Origin: a virus | IMG/VR virus record: IMGVR_UViG_3300049789_000029 | Span: 1-55,910 of that record | Reading direction: 5' to 3' (one strand) | DNA length: 55,910 nucleotides | In this document: piece after piece, positions 20,717 to 45,684 of the stretch | Position numbering within the stretch: position 1 is the first letter of the stretch | How the letters are laid out: every line of letters starts with the position of its first letter | Notes under the pieces: generated by a model | What the model saw: only the letters and a program-made list of their open reading frames with translations | Databases searched by the model: none | What the model was told of the DNA's origin: nothing | Translations under genes and position numbers: made by a program

Positions 20717-21628
20717 ATGAGAACTCTGACCGACAACGATAGACATTGGGGTCCGTTCACCTTCGGGAAATGGACCGGAACGTTTTCACTCACACTGAGC
20801 AGCGCTGGTGATGACGAGGATCATCCGGAAGAGAAATACAACACACTCCGATTGATTGCCTTTGGGTGGGTTCTCCGCATCCGAATCCCTCAACTCCTCC
20901 AGCCCTTCCGAATCAAACACCTCGCTGACTCGTGGGACGAAGCTACCATCAAGAGACTTGGCCGGAACTGGTATTACGAAGTCCACGAAAAAACGTTTGG
21001 CATTTCCCTGAGCGACATGGGAAACGGATACGACTTCCTTCAACTCTACTTCGGGCCACAGACACACGATAGCAGAACAACGAAGTCATGGTGCAAGCAC
21101 CTTCCGTGGAAACAGTGGAGGCATGTTCGGTTCAGCCTGTATCTTCCAACAGGAGGCCATTACTTCACTCACATCGAAAGCAACAGGCGTGACAGACTGG
21201 ATTCATTTGTTGCGCACATGGCTATTGAGGAGTCGTGCCCAAAAGTGCATTTCGGTTTCGAGGATTACGACGGGGAATTGATCATCGCTACTTGCAACGT
21301 AGAAGAGCGAGAGTGGCTCTTTGGCACCGGCTGGTTCAAGTGGTTAAGCCTCTTTCGCGCTCCTAAAATACGACGCTCGTTGAATCTCCAATTCAGCGCC
21401 GAAGTCGGCCCGCAAAAAAAATCATGGAAAGGCGGAACAGTCGGACACGGCATTGACATGCGCGAAGGCGAGACGCCTGAACAGGCTTTCCGCCGCTACT
21501 GCGAAATGGATCACGAGCGTAAAGGCAAACACTTCAAGCTTCGCTTCATTGGGCCATGCGATGCTCCTGCGAAAAAGGTGCCACAGATGAGTCATGAGGC
21601 TTCACCAGATCAATCCAAAGACTTATGA
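20717..21628 (+). CDS. Conserved phage protein of unknown function
   Basis: The 303-residue protein is rich in Trp and His and begins with a beta-rich part (HWGPFTFGKWTGTFSLTL). A GISLSDMGNGYDFLQLYFGPQTHDS segment (split by position ~95-120) and LPWKQWRHVRFSLY are hallmarks I recall from unannotated proteins of diverse phages. It follows the primase-helicase with one base between. A replication-linked role is plausible by position. Confidence 0.65.
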   Translation: MRTLTDNDRHWGPFTFGKWTGTFSLTLSSAGDDEDHPEEKYNTLRLIAFGWVLRIRIPQLLQPFRIKHLADSWDEATIKRLGRNWYYEVHEKTFGISLSDMGNGYDFLQLYFGPQTHDSRTTKSWCKHLPWKQWRHVRFSLYLPTGGHYFTHIESNRRDRLDSFVAHMAIEESCPKVHFGFEDYDGELIIATCNVEEREWLFGTGWFKWLSLFRAPKIRRSLNLQFSAEVGPQKKSWKGGTVGHGIDMREGETPEQAFRRYCEMDHERKGKHFKLRFIGPCDAPAKKVPQMSHEASPDQSKDL

Positions 21629-23531: not shown

Positions 23532-23597
23532 GTATGTGAAGACCAGTCAACAACTGATTGGTGACAACAAACAACAGAACAGAAAAAAGGACAGACA

Positions 23598-24146
23598 ATG
23601 AAACAGATACAGTTATTCAACGGCGTAGTGATTGGTGAGACCAGTGACGTGCTGAAGGCGTGCGCGGTGAAGCATGTGACGAACCCGGGGGAGAAGAAAG
23701 TCAATGCGAAGGGTAAGGAGCGGATTGTGGGAGTGAAGGACGTGACGCAAGTGCAGTTGTTTCCGAGAACGGCGGGAGATGGCAAGCAAAGTTTGGCGAA
23801 ACTCTTTCCGGACCAGAAGGGTCAAGGGTTGATGGCGTTCGAGGTGAAGATGCGCAGTGAGATTGCCGAAGCGGTTCTGAAGGACTTGTCGGGCAAGATC
23901 ATGTCAGGTGAGTACGTGTTCGGTGCGGCCAAGCTGAACAATCGGAACGGCAATTACGATTTGAAGTTCAAGCGGGCGGCTGTCCGGATTGTGCGGGATG
24001 AAGTGACGGAGGAGGCGGCGTGCAAAGCGCTGGGGATTACGGCGGAGCAACTGGCGGCGATAAAGGCGGCGGGATTGCCGGTGCCAGCGGGCAAGGCCAA
24101 GGGTAACAAAACCACGGTGGAAACGCTGACACTGAAGGCGGCTTAA
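23598..24146 (+). CDS. Protein of unknown function, first AAAGGACAG-box gene
   Basis: The 182-residue protein is basic and beta-rich in the first half (MKQIQLFNGVVIGETSDVLKAC), then YDLKFKRAAVRIVRD, and has an Ala/Lys-rich helix-containing C-terminus (ITAEQLAAIKAAGLPVPAG). No catalytic motif is visible. The start follows an AAAGGACAG box (23586-23594) by 3 bases. A nucleic-acid-binding role is conceivable. Confidence 0.6.
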   Translation: MKQIQLFNGVVIGETSDVLKACAVKHVTNPGEKKVNAKGKERIVGVKDVTQVQLFPRTAGDGKQSLAKLFPDQKGQGLMAFEVKMRSEIAEAVLKDLSGKIMSGEYVFGAAKLNNRNGNYDLKFKRAAVRIVRDEVTEEAACKALGITAEQLAAIKAAGLPVPAGKAKGNKTTVETLTLKAA

Positions 24147-24180
24147 TCCAACAGAGACCAAGCGAACAATCAACAGAGCG

Positions 24181-24209
24181 ACAGACCAGCGAAGCGGAGC
24201 GCTGGCTGT
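24181..24209 (+). other. Intergenic hairpin
   Basis: CCAGCG pairs with CGCTGG around an 8-base loop, extended by ACAG/CTGT across a one-base bulge (24181-24209). It lies between the 182- and 56-residue genes. No T-run follows, so it may be a processing or regulatory stem rather than a terminator. Confidence 0.35.
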
Positions 24210-24230
24210 TGCCGTTGGGAAAGGAACACA

Positions 24231-24401
24231 GTGAAGCGATTGATTGAACTCTTGTTTGTGATCGAATGCCACGAGTCGGACATGATCTGGCACTTGCAAC
24301 ACGGGACAGTTGCGGAGTTTGAAGAGAGCAAAAGGCTTCGGGCTAAAAGTCTGCGTATGCTGGCCAAAGTCGTCCGCTTCGCTGTGCCAACATTCGACTG
24401 A
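24231..24401 (+). CDS. Small GTG-start protein
   Basis: A 56-residue product (M/V-KRLIELLFVIECHESDMIWHLQ, then helical and basic) begins at GTG 24231 with AAAGGAACACA just upstream. Its stop is immediately followed by the 17-base repeat at 24401. The product combines a hydrophobic helix with a basic tail; function unknown. Confidence 0.5.
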   Translation: MKRLIELLFVIECHESDMIWHLQHGTVAEFEESKRLRAKSLRMLAKVVRFAVPTFD

Positions 24402-24417
24402 AGCATCATAGGACACC
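24401..24417 (+). repeat. 17-base intergenic repeat, copy 1
   Basis: AAGCATCATAGGACACC here is identical to 25839-25855. A near copy lies at 23515, and looser copies occur at gene ends near 28996 and 31036. This copy directly follows the stop of the 56-residue gene and precedes an AAAGGACAG-box gene by 25 bases. Confidence 0.55.
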
Positions 24418-24442
24418 ATTAGTGAAGAAAGGACAGACATCT

Positions 24443-24670
24443 ATGCCGAAACATCTCCGAAAGAACAAAGCGCCCGTGTGTCTGCACATACTGGGCCAGC
24501 CACTCGTCAATCAGGTATGGGAAGAAGGTCACGAGCTACACAAGGCCGTGGTAGACCTTCTCGCGCATCACCGGATCAAAGCGCTGGATGGAGTCAGCGA
24601 CACGTTGCAGCCCCGGCTGGACAGGCTGCGCGAACTGACGCGGGATGAACCCAAGATCGATAGCATCTGA
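24443..24670 (+). CDS. Small protein of unknown function
   Basis: The 75-residue protein starts MPKHLRKNKAPVCLHILG at 24443, 6 bases after an AAAGGACAG box (24428-24436). A GTG at 24422 would read through the box itself and is rejected. The product looks soluble and helical (VNQVWEEGHELHKAVVDLLAHH). Confidence 0.5.
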   Translation: MPKHLRKNKAPVCLHILGQPLVNQVWEEGHELHKAVVDLLAHHRIKALDGVSDTLQPRLDRLRELTRDEPKIDSI

Positions 24671-24720
24671 TTGCGGTCTGTCTCGTGACAGGGGACAGAG
24701 CGCAGTTAAATCGACTGCAC

Positions 24721-24741
24721 AACGAAGAAAGGACAGTTATG
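24721..24741 (+). promoter_or_regulatory. Extended ribosome site (AACGAAGAAAGGACAGTT box)
   Basis: This site is identical over 21 bases to 31761-31781, including the start codon, and nearly so to 32410-32432. The AGGA part is a Shine-Dalgarno sequence; the fixed CAG after it and the AACGAAG before it are not needed for that role. Two short hairpins precede it (CTGTC/GACAG 24678-24691, GCAGT/ACTGC 24702-24718). Confidence 0.6.
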
Positions 24742-24963
24742 AGCAAAGCAACAGAGACCAGTTACAAAGGACATCCCACCATCTCACTTGGGACTGACAC
24801 GCGGTTCCCGTTCAACTTCGGTTTGGAGAAGGCCAAGCTGGTTGTTGAGCACATAGACGCCATTCGTGCGTTCGTGGCCAAGCATGACAAGGCTGCGCGT
24901 CATCAGCCCGACCAGTTTGACATGCAGGTGGAAGACAACATGCGGGATGCTTGTGGCCTGTGA
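24739..24963 (+). CDS. Small protein of unknown function
   Basis: The 74-residue protein (MSKATETSYKGHPTISLG...) starts directly after the extended ribosome site. It contains a helical LEKAKLVVEHIDAIRAFVAKHD stretch. A longer frame upstream would translate the ribosome site and is not used. Its stop overlaps the next gene's GTG as GTGA. Confidence 0.55.
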   Translation: MSKATETSYKGHPTISLGTDTRFPFNFGLEKAKLVVEHIDAIRAFVAKHDKAARHQPDQFDMQVEDNMRDACGL

Positions 24964-25169
24964 AACAGCGCTTCCATTTCTCCAAGCAGCAAACGCAAAC
25001 GGGGAGCACCGCATTTGGTGCGCCCCGGGAGCGCCAGTTCTTGCGCTTGCGAGTTCGATACTGGCCCATGTGGAGACATCTCTCCCCATGGGATATTCGA
25101 GTGATCAAACAGAACCGAACGCTCCAAGTCTGGGCGCTGGAGTTCACAGTCACACGGAGGATGCAATGA
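24960..25169 (+). CDS. Small basic protein coupled on both sides
   Basis: The 69-residue frame from GTG 24960 (M/V-KQRFHFSKQQTQTG..., WPMWRHLSPWDIRVIKQ) overlaps the previous stop as GTGA and the next start as ATGA. The double coupling argues that it is real despite the GTG. The product is Arg/Trp-rich; function unknown. Confidence 0.5.
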   Translation: MKQRFHFSKQQTQTGSTAFGAPRERQFLRLRVRYWPMWRHLSPWDIRVIKQNRTLQVWALEFTVTRRMQ

Positions 25170-25387
25170 ACGAATTCGAAAAGCTGATTGCGGCGATTGT
25201 TGCGGACTACAAGGCAGGCACAAAGCCAGCGGTGCTTGCGCTCCGGATCATCGCCATCAAGCCGCACCCTATTCAGATGGCATTCATCGCGTTGGAGGTG
25301 GCTTCGTACATGACGGATCATGACGAATGCGAGTTCCGCTCACAGTTCCTTTGGACATGCACGGAGGTGATGAATGCGCGTGGTTAA
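25166..25387 (+). CDS. Small helical protein of unknown function
   Basis: The 73-residue protein (MNEFEKLIAAIVADYKAGTK...) is chosen to start at 25166 because GGAGG lies 5 bases upstream and the ATG overlaps the preceding stop. It is helical with a hydrophobic face (PIQMAFIALEVASYMTDHDE). Confidence 0.55.
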   Translation: MNEFEKLIAAIVADYKAGTKPAVLALRIIAIKPHPIQMAFIALEVASYMTDHDECEFRSQFLWTCTEVMNARG

Positions 25388-25808
25388 GGTTCCGTGGAAG
25401 CTGGATGCCAAGTGGCTCACTCGCTTCAACAGGCGTTTCAACGTGGACAAGGGCACCTATGATGGCCGCTTCACCTCACGTCTGGGCCGTGGCTATTGCA
25501 CAGGCAATCCGTGGCAGAAGATGGAATACACGTTCACAGAGCAACCGGCCAAAAGAAAGGGGCCGAACAGGAAGACAATGATAACGCAATACGTGATCGA
25601 AGCACGAACTGAGGAAGGGACATTGAAGTTCGATTGTCCCCAGCCTGAAGAGTTCTTCGGCCAAGAGGCCATCACCGGCATCACAACGAACCAGATGGCA
25701 CAGGCCATCTACCGCGCCAAGCCAGACGCGGTGCTAACCGGAGACACAGTTGCCATCTGGCCGCGACTGATCAACGAGCATTGGACAGCACGTCCGATGA
25801 CGTGGTGA
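25374..25808 (+). CDS. Protein of unknown function
   Basis: The 144-residue protein starts at ATG 25374 (MRVVKVPWKLDAKWL) with GGAGG upstream, overlapping the previous gene by 14 bases. The N-terminus is basic, the middle contains RLGRGYCTGNPWQKM and the rest is soluble and mixed alpha/beta (QYVIEARTEEGTLKF). No family recognised. Confidence 0.55.
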   Translation: MRVVKVPWKLDAKWLTRFNRRFNVDKGTYDGRFTSRLGRGYCTGNPWQKMEYTFTEQPAKRKGPNRKTMITQYVIEARTEEGTLKFDCPQPEEFFGQEAITGITTNQMAQAIYRAKPDAVLTGDTVAIWPRLINEHWTARPMTW

Positions 25809-25822
25809 AAAAGACTTGAGTT

Positions 25823-25872
25823 CAGCGCAACATCTACCAAGCATCATAGGACACCTTGGTAGATGGACGCTG
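25823..25872 (+). promoter_or_regulatory. Strong hairpin displaying a repeated loop, upstream of the AAA+ gene
   Basis: CATCTACCAAG (25831-25841) pairs perfectly with CTTGGTAGATG (25855-25865); CAGCG/CGCTG (25823-25827/25868-25872) extends the stem across a small internal loop. The 13-base loop CATCATAGGACAC is part of the 17-base repeat also found at 24401. A stem that presents a conserved loop is typical of a protein- or RNA-binding site in a leader. It lies 50 bases before the AAA+ start codon. Confidence 0.55.
25839..25855 (+). repeat. 17-base intergenic repeat, copy 2
   Basis: Identical to 24401-24417. Here it spans the loop of the hairpin at 25823-25872 and the last bases of its arms. 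It lies 66 bases before the AAA+ start codon, the same distance as the variant at 23515 from its downstream gene. Confidence 0.55.
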
Positions 25873-25921
25873 GGCGCAACGTTCAGCACAAAACATCAAC
25901 CAACAGAAAGGACAGTTAAGT

Positions 25922-26968
25922 ATGAGAATAAGTGAGTACGGAGACCTTATGGAGAAGGCGCTCCCCAAAGGACGGAAAGTCTTGTCAGTCGGCCCGCCCG
26001 GAGTCGGCAAGACAGAACAGGCTGGCACATCCGCACGGCGTTGCGGGATGGAATTCATCGGCCTGTGTTCAGCGTTGGAAGACCCAAGCTCCATTCGGGG
26101 CTATCCGTCACGAGGAGCCAACGGGGAAGCAACGCATTGCCTGTTCGATGGCATTGCCAAGGCGTTCAAAGCGGAGAAGCCCACGCTTCTCTTTTTCGAT
26201 GACTTGGGCATGGCCAGTGAGAGCACGATGCGAGCGATTGTTCGGCTCGTGCAGTTCGGTGAGATTGATAACCGCAAGCTCCCGGATCATGTGGTGATCG
26301 GTGCGGCGACGAATGACGTAGGGCACGGCGCTGGCGTCTACGGGATGATTGAACCGCTGAAGAGCCGGTTTCATTCCATCGTCAACGTGGAGACGAGTCT
26401 GGAGGACGTGATTGCCTACGGTCTTGCCCATGGCTGGCCAACGGATATGTGCGCCTATCTGCGCAATGCGCCAGATGCATTGCATGATTGGAAGCCTACA
26501 AAGGACATGAAGATCGGTGGCGCGTGTCCGCGTGGCTGGGCATATGCGGCGGACTGGGTGAACGATGGCGTTCTTGACCCGGAGGTGTTGGCTGGCTGTA
26601 TCGGCAAAGGCAGAGCCACGGCTTACATCGCGTTTCGCCAGTTGATCAACGAACTGCCGGACGTGCATCAGGTGTTGATGAATCCGGATTCGGCTCCGGT
26701 GCCTGAGAATCCGTCTGCGCGGTTTTTGGTGTCCATGGCCTTAGCAGGTCACATGGATGGCGGCAACTTCGGCAACGCGATGAAATACCTTGGTCGCTTG
26801 CCCGGGATGTTCCGTGGGTTCGCAATCCGCGACTCCATCAGAGCGGAGAACGAGAAGCGCAAGAATGATACGCTCAAGCCCGGGTATCGGCAGATTAGCG
26901 CCAGTCGTGACTTCACGGCATGGGCCTGTTCTGAGGACGGCAAAGCCATCATGTCGGCGGCATCGTGA
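25922..26968 (+). CDS. MoxR/CobS-like AAA+ ATPase
   Basis: The 348-residue protein has Walker A GPPGVGKT (residues 24-31), Walker B LLFFDDLG (~88-95), sensor-1-like VVIGAATND, and an arginine-bearing EPLKSRFHSI segment, the pattern of the MoxR/CobS clade. These rings remodel partner proteins with the help of VWA proteins, and a VWA partner is encoded next but one. The start at 25922 follows an AAAGGACAG box (25907-25915). The upstream extension from 25856 would translate the leader hairpin and is rejected. Confidence 0.8.
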   Translation: MRISEYGDLMEKALPKGRKVLSVGPPGVGKTEQAGTSARRCGMEFIGLCSALEDPSSIRGYPSRGANGEATHCLFDGIAKAFKAEKPTLLFFDDLGMASESTMRAIVRLVQFGEIDNRKLPDHVVIGAATNDVGHGAGVYGMIEPLKSRFHSIVNVETSLEDVIAYGLAHGWPTDMCAYLRNAPDALHDWKPTKDMKIGGACPRGWAYAADWVNDGVLDPEVLAGCIGKGRATAYIAFRQLINELPDVHQVLMNPDSAPVPENPSARFLVSMALAGHMDGGNFGNAMKYLGRLPGMFRGFAIRDSIRAENEKRKNDTLKPGYRQISASRDFTAWACSEDGKAIMSAAS

Positions 26969-27156
26969 AAAGGTTCAAGGTTCCCAAAGGAGCCGCCATC
27001 ACTGAGCACCTGTCTCCCCAACAGATTGAAGCGGCTGGCCGCTATCACTACTACGTGGAGAGAAAGCGCACAGCGAGCAAGAGTATGCGCAAGCGTCTGC
27101 TGGAACTACAACGACAGGCGCTTGCCGACTACATGACGGCAACTTTGATCAAGTGA
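26965..27156 (+). CDS. Small basic protein between the AAA+ and VWA genes
   Basis: The 63-residue protein (M/V-KRFKVPKGAAITEHLSPQ...) starts at GTG, overlapping the AAA+ stop as GTGA. The C-terminal two thirds form a basic helix (YYVERKRTASKSMRKRLLELQRQALADY). By position it may be an adaptor of the AAA+/VWA pair. Confidence 0.55.
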   Translation: MKRFKVPKGAAITEHLSPQQIEAAGRYHYYVERKRTASKSMRKRLLELQRQALADYMTATLIK

Positions 27157-27168
27157 AAGGACAGAAAA

Positions 27169-28434
27169 GTGAGTAAAGAAACGATGCGAAACAAACGTGT
27201 CGAGAAGGCGCAACTGCGCGTTCTCTTCAACGTGCCGTTCTTCGCACCCGGAGTGGCGCAACTCCAGCAAGTGATCTGGGATGCGACGATTCCAACGGCG
27301 TGCACGGACGGAAAGGTCATCCGGTGGAATCCGGATTGGTTCGATCAACTGGAAGATGAGGTGATCGTCACGGTATTGTGTCACGAAGTCGCACACGCAC
27401 TTCTTGGCCATCTGTGGCGGATTCCCCCGGGAGGTGATCCCAAGGTCTGGAATCAAGCCTGTGATCATGCGGTCAACCTGATGCTGAAGGAGTTCGGCAA
27501 GACGGTGACAAACCGGAACATGGCTGATCCATTTCCGTTCCCGAAGCCGGAAAGTGCGTATTGCATGGACCCGCGTTTCTCCGGGATGTCGGAGGAAGCC
27601 ATCTACCAACAACTGGCACAGAACTCCGGTGGAGGTGGTGGGGGAGGCCAAGGACAGGCCGTGGCGGGTTCGGGGGGTAGTTCCGGCCAGCCAAGCGGGA
27701 GAAAAGGGCAGAGCGGGCAGGGAGCAAGCGGCAATACCCCTCAGAATGGTTCTCCTCCTCCGTTCGGAGAGTTCACTCCCCAGCCAGCGACAGACCAGCA
27801 AGCCAAGCAGGACAAGACCCAATGGGAGAACACCCTATTGCAGAGCATTGCGGCCAGCAAAGGCCGTGGTGATGTCCCCGGGATGCTGGACAGGTTTGTT
27901 GAGGAGTTGATGAACCCCAAAGTTCCTTGGACAGAGCTGGTCAAGAACTGGCTTCGCGAGAAGGCAGAGGATGACTGGGACTGGACCAAGCCGAATCCTT
28001 ACTTCGATGACGGGGACTTCATCCTCCCCAGTCTGCACAGCGAGCGGATGGGAACGGCAGTGTTCGCGACGGATACGTCCGGCAGTATCGATCAAACGGT
28101 GCTGGCCAAGTTCCAAGCGGAGAAGCAAGGATTCTTGGACGAGATGAAGCCGACGAAGCTCGTGGACATCTGCTGTGACACCCGGATCACTCAGGAGAAG
28201 GAATACAGGGTGGGTGATCAGATTGACACCAACTGCCCGGGTGGAGGCGGGACACGGTTTGAGCCGGTGTTCGAACATATTGAAGGGTTCACGGACAAGC
28301 CCAAGTTCGCGGTCTACCTGACAGACTTGGACGGAAGCTTCCCGGCACAGGAACCGGATTATCCGGTGCTCTGGGTGGTCTACGGATGCGGGGATAAGAA
28401 GGCACCGTTTGGAGACACCATTCAAGCGGAGTAA
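27169..28434 (+). CDS. VWA protein with zincin-like motif (CobT/DUF2201-like)
   Basis: The 421-residue protein has an N-terminal metallopeptidase-like domain with HEVAH (residues 72-76) followed by LLGH, a Gly/Ser/Gln-rich disordered linker (~150-210), and a C-terminal VWA-like domain with the MIDAS start DTSGS (~301-305). This is the domain order of DUF2201 proteins, which pair with MoxR-type AAA+ ATPases. The start is GTG 27169, 4 bases after an AAAGGACAG box (27156-27164). It probably acts as substrate adaptor of the ATPase. Whether the zinc site is catalytic is unknown. Confidence 0.75.
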   Translation: MSKETMRNKRVEKAQLRVLFNVPFFAPGVAQLQQVIWDATIPTACTDGKVIRWNPDWFDQLEDEVIVTVLCHEVAHALLGHLWRIPPGGDPKVWNQACDHAVNLMLKEFGKTVTNRNMADPFPFPKPESAYCMDPRFSGMSEEAIYQQLAQNSGGGGGGGQGQAVAGSGGSSGQPSGRKGQSGQGASGNTPQNGSPPPFGEFTPQPATDQQAKQDKTQWENTLLQSIAASKGRGDVPGMLDRFVEELMNPKVPWTELVKNWLREKAEDDWDWTKPNPYFDDGDFILPSLHSERMGTAVFATDTSGSIDQTVLAKFQAEKQGFLDEMKPTKLVDICCDTRITQEKEYRVGDQIDTNCPGGGGTRFEPVFEHIEGFTDKPKFAVYLTDLDGSFPAQEPDYPVLWVVYGCGDKKAPFGDTIQAE

Positions 28435-28438
28435 TCAA

Positions 28439-28720
28439 ATGCCAAATCCGGAGAACTTGCCCGGTGGTTCGCTGACTCATGACTTCCTGACTGTGGAAGC
28501 GTGGAAGCCAAAAGGCGAGAAAAGCGAATTGCCGTTCAAGTTCCCGGACTGGCTCTACAACGATGACGGCAGAGAGGACGTGGAATCTATTCGTGCCTTC
28601 TGCCTTCATCACATTGAGAATTATGACCAGCAATACAAGTTCTGGCACACGGAACGATGGCGGACTTTTATTCAGCAGAGGCAAGCGGCCTGTTGCGCGT
28701 GGCTCCTCGCTCACTCATGA
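28439..28720 (+). CDS. Small protein of unknown function
   Basis: The 93-residue protein starts MPNPENLPGGSLTHDF, 4 bases after the VWA stop. It contains LPFKFPDWLYNDDGRED and a Trp/Gln-rich helical end (YKFWHTERWRTFIQQRQAACC). Soluble; no family recognised. It ends in an ATGA overlap. Confidence 0.5.
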   Translation: MPNPENLPGGSLTHDFLTVEAWKPKGEKSELPFKFPDWLYNDDGREDVESIRAFCLHHIENYDQQYKFWHTERWRTFIQQRQAACCAWLLAHS

Positions 28721-29022
28721 ATAATCTTCCTCCAATCAACCTGAATCAGGACGGCTGGAAGTGGGAAGCCTTTGTTGTGGATTCCATGCCCGTTCAATCG
28801 GCAAAGGAAGCCGTAGCTGCTGGACAGTGCGACAATTACCACGCTTGCCTTGTGAACATGATCTTGTGCGGCATCACCGAACAGAAAGGAACCGCCCGGA
28901 CTTGGTTCATGTATGGCAACAAGCGAGTCTTTATTCGGTTCACTCGTTTGAGCGACGGAGTTCGAATGACGGAGTGGGGCAATACGGACGACAACCGAAG
29001 CATCATGGAACGCCTTAGATGA
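28717..29022 (+). CDS. Small alpha/beta protein of unknown function
   Basis: The 101-residue protein (MNNLPPINLNQDGWKWEAF...) starts in an ATGA overlap and ends in another. It has beta strands with Arg/Thr (RTWFMYGNKRVFIRFTRL) and a C-terminus RSIMERLR. A longer start at 28657 exists but would overlap 60 bases of the preceding gene. Confidence 0.5.
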   Translation: MNNLPPINLNQDGWKWEAFVVDSMPVQSAKEAVAAGQCDNYHACLVNMILCGITEQKGTARTWFMYGNKRVFIRFTRLSDGVRMTEWGNTDDNRSIMERLR

Positions 29023-29213
29023 AGACGTGGATAGATGACATCCGGAACAAGCTTATGACTCCGGAAGAGAAGGCCATCTTTGAAGAGCGCAAGATTATCG
29101 CTCGGATGGAAGACTTTCTGAGCCGTGCGACATCGCCAAAGAAGATTGTGCGGTACACGCATCGAATGAACCGAGCACGAACAAGGCTCACGGTGTTGTT
29201 GCTGATCAAATGA
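29019..29213 (+). CDS. Small basic helical protein
   Basis: The 64-residue protein (MKTWIDDIRNKLMTPEEKAIFEE...) is charged and helical with a basic C-terminal half (RYTHRMNRARTRLTVLLLIK). ATGA overlap with the preceding stop. Function unknown. Confidence 0.5.
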   Translation: MKTWIDDIRNKLMTPEEKAIFEERKIIARMEDFLSRATSPKKIVRYTHRMNRARTRLTVLLLIK

Positions 29214-29256
29214 ATTTCTGCACTGAGATTGGTCTGTGGTGTGATTCCACGCGGAA

Positions 29257-29337
29257 CGCGCAGGATAGTTCCCGGGTGGCCAACGGTGGTGACGCCTGCG
29301 TCAGTAGAAACTGGGTTCGATTCCCGGCAGTGCGCCA
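29257..29337 (+). tRNA. Degenerate tRNA-like element
   Basis: CTGGG-TTCGATT-CCCGG (29311-29327) is a full T-arm whose loop matches the B-box consensus, and CCA follows ten bases after its end (29335-29337). GCGCA (29258-29262) can pair with TGCGC (29331-29335) as a partial acceptor. A D-arm-like GTT...AAC pair lies in between. The anticodon region folds as TGACG-CCTG-CGTCA with a 4-base loop, which cannot hold a normal anticodon. It is probably a decayed tRNA or a tRNA mimic. It fills the gene-free spacer 29214-29390. Confidence 0.3.
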
Positions 29338-29390
29338 GATTTCCCGGTTAAAGTGATCGGGGATAACCAAGAAGAAAGGACAGTTAAAAA

Positions 29391-30287
29391 ATGAGCACAC
29401 AGTTAGCAAAGCGAGCCGTTCTTATGCGGCTCACCATGGGATTGCCGGGTGAATTCCGGCAGGATGACAGCCTGACACAGGACGTGAAGAAGGAACACAA
29501 CTTGGGTCAACAGGCTGGCAAGTGGGTCAAGGCGTTGTATCCGCCCGAAGCGCTGGCCGACATCAAGAAGCTGGACAACGAAGCCAGAACGTATCATGAC
29601 GCCATCACGCTCCCGTTCGATAAGGGCATCGGTATTCTCCCGGCTGCACTGATCATGGAACACGCTGAGAGAATGCGGACGTTCATGGGACGACGGGAAG
29701 CGCTGGTCAACGCTCGCTTCATGGCTGATCCCCAGAAGTGGATTGACTGGGCGCATACCAATCACAACGGGACGTTTGACCCTAGCCTGTATCCGGGTTG
29801 CTACAAGGACGAAGCTACCGGGACGTGGATGGTGGACGCGGACAAGTTCCGTAAGGAGATGAAGGCCAAGTTCTACTTCCGCACGGAACCGTTGCCGGTG
29901 CCGGACTCGAAACACTTTGAGACCAGCGTCAAGGACTTGCTGGGACTGGACTCGGAGTCGGTGAATATCCGGATTGAAGATGCCGCAAAGGAAGCGCAAC
30001 AGGAGTTGCTCCGAAGAATGCTCAAGCCAGTGGCACACATGGCGGCAACTCTGAAGAAGGAAGACCCGCGCATCTTTGATTCGCTGATCGGGAACGTGAA
30101 GGAGATTGCGGACATCGCTCCGAAGCAGAATCTCACGGATGATCCGGTGATCAACGAACTGGCAAAGGAGATGGCTGGCCTTGTTCAGTACACTCCGGAC
30201 AACTTGCGCAAGTCAGCTGGGACGAGAGAGGCAGCGGCGATGAAGGCACAAGCGCTGATGGACCGGCTCAGTGGTTACAAGCTGTGA
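29391..30287 (+). CDS. DUF3150-like partner of the AAA+/VWA module
   Basis: The 298-residue protein is almost entirely helical, starting MSTQLAKRAVLMRLTMGLPG and containing a Lys/Glu-rich core (LGQQAGKWVKALYPPEALADIKKLDNEARTYHD split over 35-70) and LPVPDSKHFE. Its size, composition and place beside a CobS-like ATPase and VWA protein fit the DUF3150 group, which co-occurs with them in phages and integrative elements. It may be the third subunit of the complex. It follows an AAAGGACAG box (29375-29383). Confidence 0.5.
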   Translation: MSTQLAKRAVLMRLTMGLPGEFRQDDSLTQDVKKEHNLGQQAGKWVKALYPPEALADIKKLDNEARTYHDAITLPFDKGIGILPAALIMEHAERMRTFMGRREALVNARFMADPQKWIDWAHTNHNGTFDPSLYPGCYKDEATGTWMVDADKFRKEMKAKFYFRTEPLPVPDSKHFETSVKDLLGLDSESVNIRIEDAAKEAQQELLRRMLKPVAHMAATLKKEDPRIFDSLIGNVKEIADIAPKQNLTDDPVINELAKEMAGLVQYTPDNLRKSAGTREAAAMKAQALMDRLSGYKL

Positions 30288-30502
30288 AGTTCAGCGGCTA
30301 TCCATCGGACGACGTTGTGACAATGCAACAATTCAAGAAGCACTTGGATTCCATTGACGAACGACGGATTGAACGGCAAATCGCGGCCCTGAGACACAAA
30401 CTCGGGGCTGCGAGGAGCCTTCGAAAACGAGAGCGTTACGCCAAACGGATTCAATCCAAGAAAGCTCAGTTGTTGGTGGCTGTCATCTGTAGAGAACGAT
30501 GA
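30284..30502 (+). CDS. Small basic helical protein
   Basis: The 72-residue protein starts at GTG overlapping the previous stop as GTGA (M/V-KFSGYPSDDVVTMQQFKKHL...). It is a basic coiled-coil type (IERQIAALRHKLGAARSLRKRERYAKRI). Function unknown. Confidence 0.5.
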   Translation: MKFSGYPSDDVVTMQQFKKHLDSIDERRIERQIAALRHKLGAARSLRKRERYAKRIQSKKAQLLVAVICRER

Positions 30503-30708
30503 TGCCAGAAACCTACATGCTGATTCGGAGTGAGTTGCCGCATCTGAAGCTGCCTCACTGGATAGACCTATTACCAACAAGCCGAAGGAAAGCGAAGCGC
30601 CTGAACAGGGAACAACTGATAGCCAAGCGCACATATGTGTTGATGGCTTCTGAGTTTCCAAAGGAACAGATTCAGAGTGAAAACCTTTGGCCCCGGAAGC
30701 TCAAATGA
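30499..30708 (+). CDS. Small basic protein
   Basis: The 69-residue protein (MMPETYMLIRSELPHLKL...) has ATGA overlaps on both sides and a Lys/Arg-rich middle (SRRKAKRLNREQLIAKR). Function unknown. Confidence 0.5.
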   Translation: MMPETYMLIRSELPHLKLPHWIDLLPTSRRKAKRLNREQLIAKRTYVLMASEFPKEQIQSENLWPRKLK

Positions 30709-31055
30709 ACAAGCCGAAATACATCATCGGTGAAGCGGTCTACGTGGACTTTAGTGGAGTCGTTGAAGGTGTGCCGGTGAAGGTGCGCAAACATCTCTGG
30801 GTGTTTGGTGTCCAGATTGGAGTAGATGCTTACCCGAAGTTCGCTCCAGTGTTCGTGTACAAGTTGAGCGAAAATCCTCCGATTGTCGGAGAGCGGCCCG
30901 GGAAATTTTACGAGAAACAGGAATCTGAAATCATTGGCCCGGTGGAACCTGTGGTTGCGGAGGTGACGAAGGCTCAAGCGGAAGAGAAAGCACAACAGCA
31001 ACAGAACGCGCAGAAGATCATCGATGTGATGACCAAGCATCATGAGACACCATAA
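30705..31055 (+). CDS. Small protein with beta domain and Gln/Lys-rich tail
   Basis: The 116-residue protein starts MNKPKYIIGEAVYVDF in an ATGA overlap. The first 75 residues look like a small beta barrel (VKVRKHLWVFGVQIG), and the C-terminus is a charged helix (AEEKAQQQQNAQKIIDVMTKHHE). It may be an SH3-like nucleic-acid or protein binder. Confidence 0.5.
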   Translation: MNKPKYIIGEAVYVDFSGVVEGVPVKVRKHLWVFGVQIGVDAYPKFAPVFVYKLSENPPIVGERPGKFYEKQESEIIGPVEPVVAEVTKAQAEEKAQQQQNAQKIIDVMTKHHETP

Positions 31056-31365
31056 GAGAGTGATTGGGGCCAGAGTGCCGAAGCAGTTCAAGGAATCAGG
31101 GATGGAGTCATTTCCAGCACTTCACAAACCGTTAGTGATTTCTGAACTGAGTCGGCAAGAGCGGTTGTTGCTGGGATATGCTGGAGCGATGGGAATGCGG
31201 GAGTTCGCGTGGAGTCGGTTTCATCCAAGCGCCATCATCGGCAAACTGCCGGACTCGGATGTCTATTATCGGCTGACACTGGTGATAGAGGGTAAGATCG
31301 AAAAGAATCCCGATGCGGAACTGGTGGCAATGATCTACCTAGCCAGCATCGGAGAGCAACTGTAA
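31042..31365 (+). CDS. Small protein of unknown function
   Basis: The 107-residue frame starts at ATG 31042, overlapping the previous gene by 14 bases; a start at 31102 (MESFPALHKPL) is an alternative. It contains SRQERLLLGYAGAMGMREFAWSR and a C-terminal alpha/beta part. Its first codons coincide with a loose copy of the GCATCATGAGACACC element. Confidence 0.45.
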   Translation: MRHHKRVIGARVPKQFKESGMESFPALHKPLVISELSRQERLLLGYAGAMGMREFAWSRFHPSAIIGKLPDSDVYYRLTLVIEGKIEKNPDAELVAMIYLASIGEQL

Positions 31366-31386
31366 CAAACAAAAGGACAGAACAGT

Positions 31387-31671
31387 ATGAGTGAAGAGAC
31401 AGAGAATCAAAGCGAGCCAAGCCAGAGCACAGCCAATGCGATGCTCCGTGTCTTGAACGGCAAGCGGTTGAAGTGGACCGTCGTGATTCACCTGCCAGAC
31501 GGGAAAAAGCTGGAGTGGCAAGCCGTGGCCAAACCGCATGTGAAGTGGAACGATGAAGACCGATGCCTCTGGCTGATGGATAGCTCAGGCTACAGCAACA
31601 GTCCCGTCATGAAGTGGCCAGAAGGAGCCGTCATCCTCTGTGAGGACAATGAACCCGACAAGAAGCCATGA
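31387..31671 (+). CDS. Small soluble protein after an AAAGGACAG box
   Basis: The 94-residue protein (MSEETENQSEPSQSTANAM...) has an acidic, disordered N-terminus and a beta-rich rest (LKWTVVIHLPDGKKLEWQAVAK). The start lies 6 bases after AAAGGACAG (31372-31380). Its stop overlaps the next possible start as ATGA. Function unknown. Confidence 0.55.
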   Translation: MSEETENQSEPSQSTANAMLRVLNGKRLKWTVVIHLPDGKKLEWQAVAKPHVKWNDEDRCLWLMDSSGYSNSPVMKWPEGAVILCEDNEPDKKP

Positions 31672-31994
31672 ACTTTGATCGATTCAAACCCATTTGGAGA
31701 GAGCGCCGTCCGGTGGACGAACGGAACCCGGACGATGGCATCACAGGGGATGTAAACCACAACGAAGAAAGGACAGTTATGGTAAGAGACAAACGCATCT
31801 CGTTCGTCAATGAACGAGCCACAGACAGCAACGGGCTGGTGATCGTTTTCACCGGCAAATACGAACCCGATAAGAAACGACTCAAGGTATATCGAATCGA
31901 AGGAAACATCACGGACATGGAGGCTGTTGCCGAAGTGATCCGGGAGCGAGTGCAATCCATGGGACATCCAGTGGACAAGGTGTTGGTCCTCTGA
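31668..31994 (+). CDS. Small protein with two possible starts
   Basis: The upstream ATG at 31668 is coupled to the previous stop (ATGA) and gives 108 residues; the ATG at 31779 follows an extended AAAGGACAG site (31761-31781) and gives 71 residues (MVRDKRISFVNERATDSNG). Both may be used, yielding two products that share the C-terminus. The shared part is alpha/beta (VIVFTGKYEPDKKRLKVYRI). Confidence 0.5.
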   Translation: MNFDRFKPIWRERRPVDERNPDDGITGDVNHNEERTVMVRDKRISFVNERATDSNGLVIVFTGKYEPDKKRLKVYRIEGNITDMEAVAEVIRERVQSMGHPVDKVLVL

Positions 31995-32003
31995 CAACCA
32001 ACT

Positions 32004-32246
32004 ATGGCAATCAGACCAAGATCGGAGATGAAAGATCGGAAACCGGAAATCGATCTGAGCGGCCCGGACGGTAACGCTTACGCACTCATGGGCCACGCGA
32101 GAAACTTCGCGAAGCAACTGAACATTGATCCGGAGCCAATCATCACAGACATGATGTCCAGTAATTACGAGCATCTGCTGGAGGTGTTTGAGAAACACTT
32201 CGGAGAATACGTCACGCTCTACAGGGACACCGGGGACGACGAATGA
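32004..32246 (+). CDS. Small protein of unknown function
   Basis: The 80-residue protein (MAIRPRSEMKDRKPEIDLSG...) has a helical middle (YALMGHARNFAKQLNIDPEP) and an acidic end (LYRDTGDDE). It lies 9 bases after the previous stop and ends in an ATGA overlap. Confidence 0.5.
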   Translation: MAIRPRSEMKDRKPEIDLSGPDGNAYALMGHARNFAKQLNIDPEPIITDMMSSNYEHLLEVFEKHFGEYVTLYRDTGDDE

Positions 32247-32428
32247 AACCGCCCGAAGGCTACCGGCTCCTCCGACGTGGAGAACTGACAGAGCCGGGAG
32301 ACCTTGGGTGCATCGATGTCAAACGTGGCTGGACGGAACTCCGGGCTGGCCACGTCATTTACCAGAGAGTGTCAGTATCCGGGCGTGTTGCTCGGAAGAT
32401 AGAAAACAAAACGAAGAAAGGACAGTAA
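32243..32428 (+). CDS. Small basic protein
   Basis: The 61-residue protein (MKPPEGYRLLRRGELTEPGD...) starts in an ATGA overlap. It reads into the next gene's AAAGGACAG box, ending NKTKKGQ. The GYRLLxxGExxxxGD pattern is common in small phage proteins of unknown role. Confidence 0.5.
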   Translation: MKPPEGYRLLRRGELTEPGDLGCIDVKRGWTELRAGHVIYQRVSVSGRVARKIENKTKKGQ

Positions 32429-32429
32429 C

Positions 32430-32666
32430 ATGAACGCAGAAACACAAACACCGAAGCCGAAGGCCGGACGCACCAAAACGGACCCGGCAATCGTGGCAGT
32501 CAAGAAAGCGTATCGTTCCACACCGTTGTTCGAAGTGGACGAACTGATGAAGCAGCAATCCCGGTGGATGCGAAAGCGCACCATTGCGGAGAACAAGCTG
32601 GCCGACGTGCGCAAGCGCATGGACGAACTGTTGAAGGAACTGGCTACACCCAAGATGTCGTCATGA
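32430..32666 (+). CDS. Small basic helical protein
   Basis: The 78-residue protein (MNAETQTPKPKAGRTKTDPA...) has a Lys-rich disordered start and a helical, charged rest (MKQQSRWMRKRTIAENKLADVRKRMDELLKE). It follows an extended AAAGGACAG site (32417-32425). Confidence 0.5.
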   Translation: MNAETQTPKPKAGRTKTDPAIVAVKKAYRSTPLFEVDELMKQQSRWMRKRTIAENKLADVRKRMDELLKELATPKMSS

Positions 32667-32908
32667 TCAACGTGTGCTCAGAGAACCACGACGAAGTGGC
32701 CTACATTGACCGCGAGTGTCCGATGTGCGTCCTGATCGGACAGCACAAAGAGGCACTCTCGGACGAGAGGGATAAGGTCAAGGTGTTGGAAAGCGAATTA
32801 TCCGACGCTCTTGCCGAAATCCAACTCCTTCGCGAGCCGGTCATCTGTGCCGTGAAGGTGATCAGAGAGGAGATGCTCAATGAGTCACCCCTTGCGCAAT
32901 CACCGTAG
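32663..32908 (+). CDS. Small zinc-knuckle and coiled-coil protein
   Basis: The 81-residue protein has a cysteine start (MINVCSENHDEVAYIDRECPMC), which can form a zinc knuckle, then a coiled coil (RDKVKVLESELSDALAEIQLLRE). This type, a short CxxC start followed by a coiled coil, recurs among phage early proteins. ATGA overlap with the previous gene. Confidence 0.55.
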   Translation: MINVCSENHDEVAYIDRECPMCVLIGQHKEALSDERDKVKVLESELSDALAEIQLLREPVICAVKVIREEMLNESPLAQSP

Positions 32909-32971
32909 CTCGTGATATGGAACAGCAGCAGAAAACAGGACAGACAGGACAGTAACCAACAAAACCAATTC

Positions 32972-33036
32972 GGAGTGCGGGCCTGCGAGTAGCTCACTTC
33001 TCGCCGTCAACTGTCCGACGCTTCGGCCCGCACTCC
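32972..33036 (+). ncRNA. Three-way-junction structured RNA upstream of the annealing-protein gene
   Basis: A perfect 12-base stem, GGAGTGCGGGCC (32972-32983) with GGCCCGCACTCC (33025-33036), encloses 41 bases that fold into two hairpins: GCGAG/CTCGC (32985-32989/33000-33004) and CGTC/GACG (33005-33008/33017-33020). This is the shape of a compact three-way junction, as in small riboswitches or protein-binding leaders. No T-run follows, so it is not an intrinsic terminator. It fills most of the gene-free spacer 32909-33062 and ends 26 bases before the start codon. Confidence 0.5.
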
Positions 33037-33062
33037 ACCCCTTAAACAGAAAGACAGAAACC

Positions 33063-34124
33063 ATGACTGATAATAAAAACCAACCCGTGGAAGAACTGGA
33101 AGTGCTTGCGCCATCGGCTGTGATGTCCCTTGAACGGGCATCCATCGATTGCCAAGTCGCCACGGCACACCAATACCCTCGCAGCTTGGAACTGTTCAAG
33201 AAGCGTGCGCTCTCCATGGCCACGCTGGACTTGCCGACAGCGGAAAGCTGTATCTACTCCCGGCCTGTCGGAGACGGCAAGGTTGCGGAAGGTGCCAGCA
33301 TTCGTCTGGCAGAAATCGTAGCAGCCAGCTACGGCAATCTTCGTGTTGCTTCGCGCATCGTGGAACAGACTGAACGCTACGTGAAGTGCGAAGGAGTTGC
33401 TCACGATCTTGAATCCAATTACGCGGGCAAGTCCGAGTGCATTGAGCCAACCGTCACGAAGATGGGAAAGCCCTACTCCGAAGGGCAACGCGCAGTTGTG
33501 GCCAAGGCGTGTCTGGCCAAGGCTTACCGGGATGCCGTGTTCAAGGTTGTCCCCAAGGCGTTGTGCAAAGCGGTGATCGATGCCGCCATCGGTGTCATCA
33601 ACAAGGATGTGGTCTCTCTGGAAGACCGTCGCAAACGAGTGCGTGACTGGCTGAAGGCAATCAAGGTGGATGACCGCCGCGTGTTCACCGTCCTGAAAGT
33701 AAAGGGCTGGAGTGAAGTGTCGGACGATCACTTGATTGTTCTCACTGGACTCAAGACCGCCATCAACGACGGAGACACAACGGTTGAGGAAGCGTTCCCG
33801 AACATTCCCAGCAAGCCGTTGTTCAACGAGCCAACTCCTCCGGCAGGAGCGCCACAGGAAGCGAACCCGGCAGGAGCAACTCCGCCAACGCCGCCCGCAC
33901 CTCAACAGAAGCAGCAGACTCCGGTGGAGAAGGTTCGTTCCTTCTCCAAGATTGCCGGAGTAAAAGAGGAAACGGTGATCTATTTCCTGACAGAAGTAGG
34001 CATTGCTGAACAGGGCACTCAGACGTTCGAACAGTTGAACGAGAGCGCTCTTGAGACGCTGCTCAACCAGTGGGAAGACATTGTTAAGCGCGTGAAGGAG
34101 ATGGCGACAGCGGCGAATATGTAA
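33063..34124 (+). CDS. Candidate single-strand annealing protein (recombinase)
   Basis: The 353-residue protein has an N-terminal helical and beta core (YPRSLELFKKRALSMATLDL, TAESCIYSRPVGDGKVAEGAS, IRLAEIVAASYGNLRVASRIV), a Pro/Gln-rich linker (~260-300) and a C-terminal helical domain (EKVRSFSKIAGVKEETVIYFL). The core resembles phage recombinases that anneal DNA single strands, and the PD-(D/E)XK nuclease encoded two genes downstream is the usual partner. I assign this mainly from context. Upstream is the structured leader at 32972, and an AAAGACAG box variant precedes the ATG. Confidence 0.45.
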   Translation: MTDNKNQPVEELEVLAPSAVMSLERASIDCQVATAHQYPRSLELFKKRALSMATLDLPTAESCIYSRPVGDGKVAEGASIRLAEIVAASYGNLRVASRIVEQTERYVKCEGVAHDLESNYAGKSECIEPTVTKMGKPYSEGQRAVVAKACLAKAYRDAVFKVVPKALCKAVIDAAIGVINKDVVSLEDRRKRVRDWLKAIKVDDRRVFTVLKVKGWSEVSDDHLIVLTGLKTAINDGDTTVEEAFPNIPSKPLFNEPTPPAGAPQEANPAGATPPTPPAPQQKQQTPVEKVRSFSKIAGVKEETVIYFLTEVGIAEQGTQTFEQLNESALETLLNQWEDIVKRVKEMATAANM

Positions 34125-34244
34125 CCAATTTAACAACGCGACCGGAGCAACGTGGCTGGCATGATGGTCTTTTGGTAACTGTCCCCGTCATGTATCAGTC
34201 TGGAAATTGCCTGGGCAGAAAAAGGACTGGCTCTCTCGTGAAAT

Positions 34245-34312
34245 GAGGATACGGGTCACAGCTTCCTCTATAAGCGGAGAGTTGGTTCATGCACCCCACT
34301 TGCAGGGTGCAT
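34245..34312 (+). promoter_or_regulatory. Two leader hairpins between recombinase and zinc-ribbon genes
   Basis: GAGGA/TCCTC (34245-34249/34264-34268) forms a small hairpin. ATGCACCC/GGGTGCAT (34289-34296/34305-34312) forms a perfect 8-base stem with an 8-base loop, with AGAG/CTCT outside it. They lie in the 221-base gene-free stretch 34125-34345 and may control the zinc-ribbon and nuclease genes. Confidence 0.4.
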
Positions 34313-34345
34313 CCTCTGTACGGGCGCGTTGTTTGTTACGAAATT

Positions 34346-34657
34346 ATGAGCCGACAACTTCTTTGCCGGAAGTGCGGTGATCCGTACGATCTTCACGCAT
34401 TGGACAAGCAGCATGGATTCTTCATGCGCAAAACCTTCGTGGCGCTGGGAGCAAATGCTCACGGTGTCACGGTGAACGGAGAGTTTACTCCAATGAACAA
34501 CTACCATTGTGACAAGTGTGATGAATTGATCGACAACACTGTTGTCGTCGCGGCGAGCATCTTCACACTGGAGAAACCGCTGGGAAACTGGGAAGAAGAC
34601 TTCGGAGAAGTCATGCCGATAGAAGCAGTTCAAGCCTTAGACAAATTATTAAAATGA
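34346..34657 (+). CDS. Zinc-ribbon protein
   Basis: The 103-residue product from ATG 34346 starts MSRQLLCRKCGDPYDLHAL and has a second knuckle at CDKCDELI, giving a zinc ribbon. The earlier ATG at 34289 would read through the hairpin and is rejected. It is coupled to the nuclease gene (ATGA 34654-34657), so it may be an accessory of the recombination pair. Confidence 0.6.
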   Translation: MSRQLLCRKCGDPYDLHALDKQHGFFMRKTFVALGANAHGVTVNGEFTPMNNYHCDKCDELIDNTVVVAASIFTLEKPLGNWEEDFGEVMPIEAVQALDKLLK

Positions 34658-35778
34658 CAACACAACCTGACATCATAGACGAAAGGGGTGGATTCACCTC
34701 TGCATCCAACGCTGAGTACGATCTTCTCTGCCAAGGCCGTCACCTTGCGCAGAAAGGAAAGACGGCTGGCCCTGAGAGCGCCGACGCTTCGCATGGACGA
34801 TTGATCCATGACGCACTCAGAACTGGCGACACATCCAAGCTATCCATCGAACAGCATGACATCTATGAGTCGTGCGTGACGATTGAGAACAAGTTGTTGA
34901 TGGAACTCTTTCCTGAAATGGCACACAGCAAGGAACAAATCAAAGCGTGGCGAGAGGAAAGACTCTGGGTGACTATCACCGCCACTGGACACAAGCACAG
35001 TGCCAAGCCTGATGTTGTCTACCGCTTTGGCCAGCGAGCGCTGATCATCGAATACAAGACTCTGGCGGGTGAAATCCCTGAGTCTCCGAAGAATCAACAA
35101 CTCCGTGATCAAGCCGTGTTGGTAAGCGGAAACAAAATTGTTTCCGACATTGCTGTTGCCGTAATCCAACCGCTGGTCACTCACAGTCCGGAAGTTTGCT
35201 ACTACGCACGGGAAGATTTGAAGCGAGCCGAAACGGAAATGTTCGCACGAGTCAACGCCAGCCATGATCCGACAGCCAAGCGCACGGCGGGTGAAGCTCA
35301 GTGCAAATTCTGTTTGGCTCGCAACGAGTGTGCCGACTACCAGAAATTCGCTGGCTCCATGGTTCCTCACATGCTCTCTCTGCTGGATGTCCCGGTTGTT
35401 GCGTGGAGTCCTGACCAGCGAGCGATGTTCTTGGACAAGGCTAAGGTTGCGCAGAAGTGGCTGGATGAAACTCAGTCGGAGATGAAGAGGCTGATGGCCG
35501 AAGACCCACACGCGGTCACTGGTTACATCCTCAAACCCGGAGTGATCCGGGAGAGCGTCACCAACGCGCAAGGCGTTTACGAACGGTTCTCCGAACTTGG
35601 CGGCACAGCCGAACAGTTTCTTCAGACAGTCACGGTGAAGAAGGGAGAACTGAAGGAGCAACTGTCTGCCGTCACCAAGAAGAAAGGCAAGGAACTCAAC
35701 TCAATGATGTCCACCCTCCTTGAAGGAATGGTGGAAGCAAAACAAACCGCACCCACAATAGAGAAGGTGATCAAGTGA
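34654..35778 (+). CDS. PD-(D/E)XK nuclease (RecB/Cas4-like, DUF2800 type)
   Basis: The 374-residue protein shows ASHGRLIHDAL early, then KPDVVYRFGQRALIIEYKTL near residues 118-138, with the D and E-x-K of a PD-(D/E)XK active site, and a downstream QLRDQAVL helix. CKFCLARNEC near residue 216 is the cysteine cluster of an Fe-S or zinc lobe, as in Cas4-type nucleases. This enzyme likely makes 3' tails for the annealing protein. The C-terminal 120 residues are helical and may contact it. Coupled to its neighbours by ATGA and GTGA overlaps. Confidence 0.75.
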   Translation: MTTQPDIIDERGGFTSASNAEYDLLCQGRHLAQKGKTAGPESADASHGRLIHDALRTGDTSKLSIEQHDIYESCVTIENKLLMELFPEMAHSKEQIKAWREERLWVTITATGHKHSAKPDVVYRFGQRALIIEYKTLAGEIPESPKNQQLRDQAVLVSGNKIVSDIAVAVIQPLVTHSPEVCYYAREDLKRAETEMFARVNASHDPTAKRTAGEAQCKFCLARNECADYQKFAGSMVPHMLSLLDVPVVAWSPDQRAMFLDKAKVAQKWLDETQSEMKRLMAEDPHAVTGYILKPGVIRESVTNAQGVYERFSELGGTAEQFLQTVTVKKGELKEQLSAVTKKKGKELNSMMSTLLEGMVEAKQTAPTIEKVIK

Positions 35779-43016: not shown

Positions 43017-43019
43017 CTC

Positions 43020-45642: not shown

Positions 45643-45684
45643 ACTCGTTCCTGCTGCTTTACTCCTCCCGTTCTGTTTTGGCAA

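Follow-up and report, generated by a model that had tools for sequence, protein, structure and literature searches.

Pairs made of a MoxR-type AAA+ ATPase and a protein carrying a VWA domain are encoded by several hundred sequenced phages, the model phage N4 among them, and conflicting roles have been ascribed to them in the literature. The pair itself is already known, both as gp24/gp25 of N4, which are middle genes (PMC4193335), and as a jumbo-phage pair reported in 2021 (PMC7824862). In the related NorQD system, a finger of the VWA protein sits in the pore of the ATPase ring, the linker being remodelled by ATP hydrolysis (PMC13036017). No account of a trio that adds a DUF3150 protein to such a pair was found in the open-licence papers searched, where the name DUF3150 was absent. 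We describe here such a set in a virus record of 55,910 bases (IMGVR_UViG_3300049789_000029), the whole of which was analysed and is called the window below. The trio lies on the + strand at 25922-30287, from the ATG of the ATPase gene (25922) to the stop codon of the DUF3150-like gene (30287), and comprises three larger genes and several small ones. All three reading frames, encoding an AAA+ ATPase, a VWA protein and a third protein, were found where a preliminary description of this DNA had placed them.

We propose, with a probability of roughly 60%, that the three products would act as a three-subunit MoxR-VWA remodelling machine of the NorQD kind, made early in infection together with replication genes. 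This proposal builds on what was obtained here, namely the three genes, their motifs, their conservation, their co-occurrence and their replication-gene context.

Composition of the Trio

The first subunit (25922..26968, + strand, 348 amino acids) is an ATPase which profile comparisons place in the MoxR clade, nearer to the MoxR/dynein-midasin group than to other AAA+ clades. PF00004 was the sole Pfam match of the window protein above the cut-off (E = 7e-6), together with PHROG 1297 (E = 4e-50); members of its family matched AAA_5 (37/51), AAA_3 (16/51) and bpMoxR (12/51) in Pfam, and the family profile led, in the PDB, to Midasin (8e-42) and NorQ (2e-10), and also to CbbQ. Since these are groups with VWA partners, these matches argue for a remodelling machine. 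The clear Walker motifs reported previously were indeed present, with one correction. Walker A (GPPGVGKT, residues 24-31, 25991..26014, + strand) and Walker B (LLFFDD, residues 89-94, 26186..26203, + strand) contain the invariant K30 and D93, but the second acid of Walker B, at position 94, is Asp in place of the catalytic Glu. Over 82 sequences, K30, D93, N131 (sensor 1) and R204 (sensor 2) are 100% conserved, and R149 (arginine finger) 99%. The Asp at position 94 marks one lineage; a tie between this residue and the third gene (29/48 trio versus 3/34 pair-only loci) was considered and dropped, because Asp arose as a single event on the ATPase tree and no independent pairs support the correlation.

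The second subunit (27169..28434, + strand, 421 amino acids) combines a DUF2201_N zincin domain, a disordered linker and a VWA domain, and matches PF13203 (putative metallopeptidase, E = 8e-39), then PF09967 (VWA, E = 1e-23), and PHROG 1314. As described previously, it carries both HEVAH (residues 72-76, 27382..27396, + strand) and DTSGS (residues 302-306, 28072..28086, + strand). The latter is motif 1 of a metal-ion-dependent adhesion site (MIDAS) which is complete: across the family alignment, D302, S304, S306 and D386 are 100% conserved, and T362 99%. HEVAH begins an M48-like HExxHxxxxHxxR pattern, and H72, E73, H76, H81, R84, N95 and D99 are conserved at 97-100%, a figure that is biased because many loci were fetched with a pattern that includes HExxH. 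Conservation of HEVAH in homologues had been set beforehand as a test of the preliminary description, and HExxH was kept in 20/22 sequences that were not reached via that motif, as well as in 9/9 sequences found without any motif. N95 and D99 (both 100%) bound the stretch NQACD (27451..27465, + strand), on the helix after HExxH, as a candidate for the third metal ligand.

From a structural point of view, the AlphaFold2 model of this protein (mean predicted local distance difference test, pLDDT, 84) places strands at 34-37, 44-46 and 50-53, the active-site helix at 63-78 and a further helix at 91-115, followed by a disordered linker (about 157-200), helices, and the VWA domain (290-421). Residues 290-421 of the model match I-domains (Z about 13, root-mean-square deviation about 2.4, about 128 residues), and the M48 peptidase 3c37 and the minigluzincin MJ1213 can both be aligned with the zincin half via the edge strand and HExxH. 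The pattern HExxHxxxxHxxR is common to the zincin half and 3c37, the preceding active-site strand being present too. Among 76 members of the VWA family, Pfam matches to M48 were found in 23 and to SprT-like in 17. This family bears the name "HNH endonuclease" in PHROG 1314 and in many RefSeq phage records; no HNH domain was found by Pfam in the 76 members.

The third subunit (29391..30287, + strand, 298 amino acids) gave no direct match in Pfam, PHROG or NCBIfam, PF11348 (DUF3150) included, and neither the window nor the pair-only phages contained a match to PF11348 when their records were scanned whole. Its link to DUF3150 comes through its relatives, of which 15/53 match PF11348 (E <= 0.1; best 1e-8), through co-occurrence, and through its structure model (pLDDT 93, predicted TM-score 0.86), whose top structural match in BFVD is named DUF3150 domain-containing protein (TM 0.79/0.80, E = 5e-19). 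The predicted structure is thus that of a protein sharing its fold with DUF3150 proteins, and we write "DUF3150-like" rather than "DUF3150" because the window protein itself fails PF11348. The preliminary description was right on this likeness but too simple in calling the protein helical, as an alpha/beta part extends to about residue 188 of the model and a helical bundle makes up the C-terminus. A Foldseek search of the model against the PDB gave no match below E = 0.1, and VIA-align of residues 189-298 returned generic helical bundles only; the N-terminal part was barely probed by this comparison, and a new fold is not claimed.

The start sites of the three genes share a leader or ribosome-binding motif, AGAAAGGACAG, at 25905..25915 before subunit 1, at 27154..27164 with one mismatch before subunit 2, and at 29373..29383 before subunit 3, all on the + strand. 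With one mismatch allowed, AGAAAGGACAG has 11 matches in the window versus 1.25 expected by chance, all on the + strand and spanning 23584-34761. Because all three trio genes share this leader, it suggests that the trio and other genes of the same arm form one expression set. Promoter and terminator scans of the window gave fewer matches than in shuffles.

Recurrence of the Set

Co-occurrence of the three families had also been set beforehand as a test. Family profiles, built from annotated plasmid loci, were applied to 108 loci taken from phages, plasmids, viral contigs and bacterial genomes, and co-occurrence was counted over the 48 non-redundant loci whose flanking DNA was long enough. The ATPase gene stood beside the VWA gene in 48/48 loci and the third gene was found in 34/48, always on the same strand and at most 1.9 kb away. 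Three gene orders were observed, ATPase-third-VWA, ATPase-VWA-third (that of the window) and third-ATPase-VWA, and the maintenance of the set through rearrangement argues for a functional linkage. Neither of the two outcomes named beforehand as refuting, a lack of co-occurrence or a HEVAH not conserved in close homologues, was observed. On the VWA tree, the distribution of the third gene needs 12 changes, versus 21 with shuffled labels, which indicates on phylogenetic grounds that it is clustered, yet repeatedly gained or lost.

Searches starting from the window proteins were uneven in their reach. Over 50,697 phage records, tblastn found the VWA protein in 663, the ATPase in 496 and the third protein in 3 (cyanophage); the third protein was also found by tblastn in 15 plasmids, mostly of Burkholderiales, and annotated plasmid loci carry the ATPase, the third protein and the VWA protein together. 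Scans of viral contigs with single proteins returned one close relative or none, the alignment reaching from N4 to cyanophages was too diverse for search patterns, and the window had no match in the phage collection at the nucleotide level. Over the viral loci, the nearest larger genes include those for DNA polymerase, helicase, primase, ligase, thymidylate synthase and ribonucleotide reductase, and the 25 most frequent neighbour PHROG families include no named head, tail or packaging family.

A more distant version is found on the IncA plasmid pRA1, whose plasmid family shares a bet-exo module with SXT. The order there is an ATPase (AAA_5 plus CbbQ_C), an unknown gene, bet, exo, a true DUF3150 gene (8e-89), and a CobT-type VWA gene with HEAAH. 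This set was not reached by tblastn from the window proteins; the profile of the third subunit picked up its DUF3150 protein (E = 6e-7 in a scan of six proteins), and that of the VWA family could be aligned to its VWA protein only around TDG...HExxH...N...D. On this profile evidence, distant versions of the same three kinds of part are found in the phage trio and in pRA1. The earlier statement that SXT-type elements carry the trio is thereby retained in an amended form, pRA1 carrying a set that is parallel to the trio but divergent from it, with a VWA protein of the CobT type. In SXT/R391 elements, SetCD activates the bet-exo operon, and deletions of s067, s068 and s070 in SXT, which may be trio genes, lowered transfer by no more than 10-fold. 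SXT s063 was considered as the trio ATPase and rejected, as it is divergent from the recombination operon.

Two side observations concern these families. The IncA VWA protein (L112:33513-35294) combines a CobT Pfam match with HEAAH, and it may be that cobaltochelatase CobT itself has a decayed zincin as its N-terminal domain. On a Nitrospirota plasmid (L009:4746-7768), a DUF3150 protein stands beside a different AAA ATPase, DUF1257 and DUF2997, with no VWA gene seen at this locus, which is possibly another DUF3150-based system.

Proposed Function and Alternatives

From a mechanistic point of view, the AAA+ subunits would form a hexamer, by analogy with NorQD (PMC13036017). The VWA domain would dock on or in the pore of this hexamer, with its MIDAS holding the target, and ATP-driven turning of the ring would pull on the flexible linker between the two halves of the protein, the VWA half and the N-terminal zincin half. 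The latter would bind a metal via HExxH and would probably cleave, or at least grip, the target, so that the trio is possibly also a protease, as had been suggested. The DUF3150-like subunit would be a third partner with which the machine can dispense, and would choose or present the substrate, or else control the motor. The NorQD scheme fits because the layout is the same, namely an N-terminal domain, a flexible linker and a VWA domain. Inference on our part are the formation of a complex, remodelling driven by ATP, proteolysis, expression early in infection by this phage, and what the third subunit does.

Several observations weigh against this proposal. Firstly, the structure models are those of single chains (the VWA protein and the DUF3150-like protein). 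Secondly, the third gene was found in 0/26 pair-only whole records (N4, JWAlpha, CRP-7, phage G and six bacterial genomes among them), in scans that detected three positive controls. The trio thus recurs in phages, as previously described, without being universal, and its third gene is therefore not essential to the basic mechanism. Thirdly, HExxH has exceptions: L048 has HVTMH, in which the catalytic Glu is lost whereas both histidines and the trio are kept, and L031, where the third gene is absent, has EQVLH. Catalysis is therefore not needed everywhere. Fourthly, helix 91-115 has no conserved Glu, the expected third ligand of M48, and bears the invariant N95 and D99 instead. Finally, virion proteins of the roseophage RPP1 are encoded near its gp24/25 homologues (PMC4193335).

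The third and fourth points would be explained if the HExxH domain had degenerated into a binding module without catalysis, so that the machine would only remodel, which we regard as a serious, if tentative, possibility. In L048 the module would have lost its catalytic residue, and in L031 more than that. However, HExxH persists in nearly all of the sequences not selected through it, most of the residues around it (H72, E73, H76, H81, R84 and D99) are conserved to about the same degree as the MIDAS, although this comparison is partly biased by the search motif, and the parallel IncA VWA family keeps HEAAH.

The same mechanics could also be directed at a host defence or regulatory protein, in counter-defence or host takeover. 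In line with this, the third gene behaves as an accessory gene, with about 12 gains or losses on the tree, MoxR-vWA couples serve as switches in conflict systems (PMC7159879), and the window encodes Acb3, an inhibitor of the cyclic-oligonucleotide-based antiphage signalling system (CBASS), at 20717-21628 (PF25187, E = 7e-63), 4.3 kb upstream of the trio and adjoining a primase-helicase gene. Yet Acb3 occurs in 1/40 trio or pair records, and was rejected as a trio partner, while replication genes, not known anti-defence genes, dominate the context; we consider such a role unlikely. The third subunit had no Pfam match to VMAP, inactive STAND, FtsH-pair or beta-propeller families, which are third components of MoxR-vWA ternary conflict systems.

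A chaperone of virion assembly with a peptidase, in which the pair would fold and trim structural proteins, appears a little less probable still. This role was put forward for the group 2.2 jumbo phage pairs on the model of a tail-assembly pair of an archaeal virus (PMC7824862), and the position of the RPP1 homologues is in line with it. It is disfavoured because the neighbours are genes of replication and nucleotide metabolism, with head, tail and packaging families missing from the 25 commonest, because N4 gp24/25 are middle, not late, genes, and because the trio is also found on Burkholderiales plasmids and bacterial genome contigs, where a virion role is unlikely.

A more ambitious extension of the remodelling machine, which we regard as speculative and improbable, is a new architecture of ATP-dependent protease, in which a MoxR ring would drive a VWA clamp carrying an M48/SprT-like metalloprotease, with DUF3150 as substrate adaptor; its task, in phages and conjugative elements alike, would be to clear DNA of proteins, by stripping or cleavage, at the forks of replication or recombination. 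The SprT-like proteases SPRTN and Wss1 act with an AAA+ unfoldase, and the proposed protease would be their counterpart.

It is more doubtful again that the third gene is a passenger and the machine the ATPase-VWA pair alone, as the 26 pair-only records might suggest: the constant strand and short distance of this gene across 34 loci and three orders, its recurrence in the divergent IncA set with a different type of VWA protein, and the leader common to all three genes are against it. A cobaltochelatase, in which CobS/CobT-like products would join the host CobN and boost cobalamin, was proposed for related pairs of archaeal and bacterial tailed viruses (PMC8651126) and also combines a MoxR-clade ATPase with a VWA protein, but it is very improbable here, as the NCBIfam models of CobS and CobT found nothing in the scanned ATPase and VWA proteins, neither the VWA protein of the window nor any of the 76 family members is matched by PF06213 or PF11775, and a CobT Pfam match was obtained solely in the divergent IncA VWA protein. 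The CobS/CobT naming of the preliminary description, in the cobalt-chelatase sense, therefore has no supporting profile in Pfam or NCBIfam, and no evidence was found for the metal insertion it had also envisaged.

Taken together, these results speak against a chelatase, lower the standing of virion assembly and place the set in a replication module, and a recurrent third subunit is recognised, common to phages and conjugative plasmids. This opens the function of the set to tests in N4, in E. coli K-12 or by reconstitution, and L048 and L031 offer natural test cases for the zinc motif.

Surroundings of the Trio in the Window

Four small open reading frames, all on the + strand, lie between the trio genes: one of 63 amino acids overlapping the ATPase stop (26965..27156), one of uncertain start (28409..28720, from TTG at 28409 or later), one at 28657..29022, and one at 29019..29213. 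When these were compared with the fetched relatives, a recognisable homologue was obtained for 28657-29022 alone of those tested (34%, in the relative L028), the first having none at E < 0.01 and the second and fourth not being conserved. For this reason these genes, previously described as adaptor-like, are probably not parts of the machine.

Upstream of the trio lies a toprim primase-helicase gene (18709-20715). Downstream are a gene for a RecT-like annealing protein (33063-34124; PHROG 3657, with no Pfam match), which clusters with the RecT gene of L028, and then a DUF2800 / PD-(D/E)XK exonuclease gene (34654-35778). The trio thus adjoins recombination genes in the window, as reported, but this is not general: RecT was found in 4/40 and YqaJ in 2/40 trio or pair records, replication genes being found instead, and recombination genes were rejected as a general partner because of this rarity. 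Further along, the - strand of 36783-49835 contains large reading frames (2077, 797, 586, 361 and 239 amino acids) without a PHROG match at E <= 0.001, and a terminase gene at 49891-51729 marks the window as phage.

Comparison With Known Systems

The closest described relatives are gp24/gp25 of N4 and their Schitoviridae homologues (PHROG 1297 / PHROG 1314), which are homologous to the ATPase and the zincin-VWA protein, in the same order and with HExxH and MIDAS kept. By contrast with the window, identity is about 25-30%, the Walker B residue is Glu in N4 where it is Asp here, and the N4 record has no DUF3150 gene. The group 2.2 jumbo phage pair likewise consists of a MoxR ATPase and a vWA protein fused to an N-terminal metallopeptidase; the accessible part of its account describes no third subunit, and proposes the virion-assembly role that the context disfavours here (PMC7824862). 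NorQ-NorD, CbbQ-CbbO and RavA-ViaA all associate a MoxR AAA+ protein with a VWA partner, and NorD has the same succession of N-terminal domain, linker and VWA domain as the trio protein (PMC13036017). The role of NorQD differs, as it inserts iron into nitric oxide reductase, and the accessible part of the account describes neither a zincin nor a third subunit (PMC13036017). The trio of Burkholderiales and Acetobacteraceae plasmids consists of the same three families, but in the order ATPase-DUF3150-VWA and on plasmids, some of which are conjugative. Finally, the set of IncA/C plasmids and SXT/R391 elements shares with the trio its three kinds of subunit and a VWA protein with an N-terminal domain bearing HEAAH, and differs in that its ATPase is of the CbbQ_C type and its VWA protein of the CobT type.

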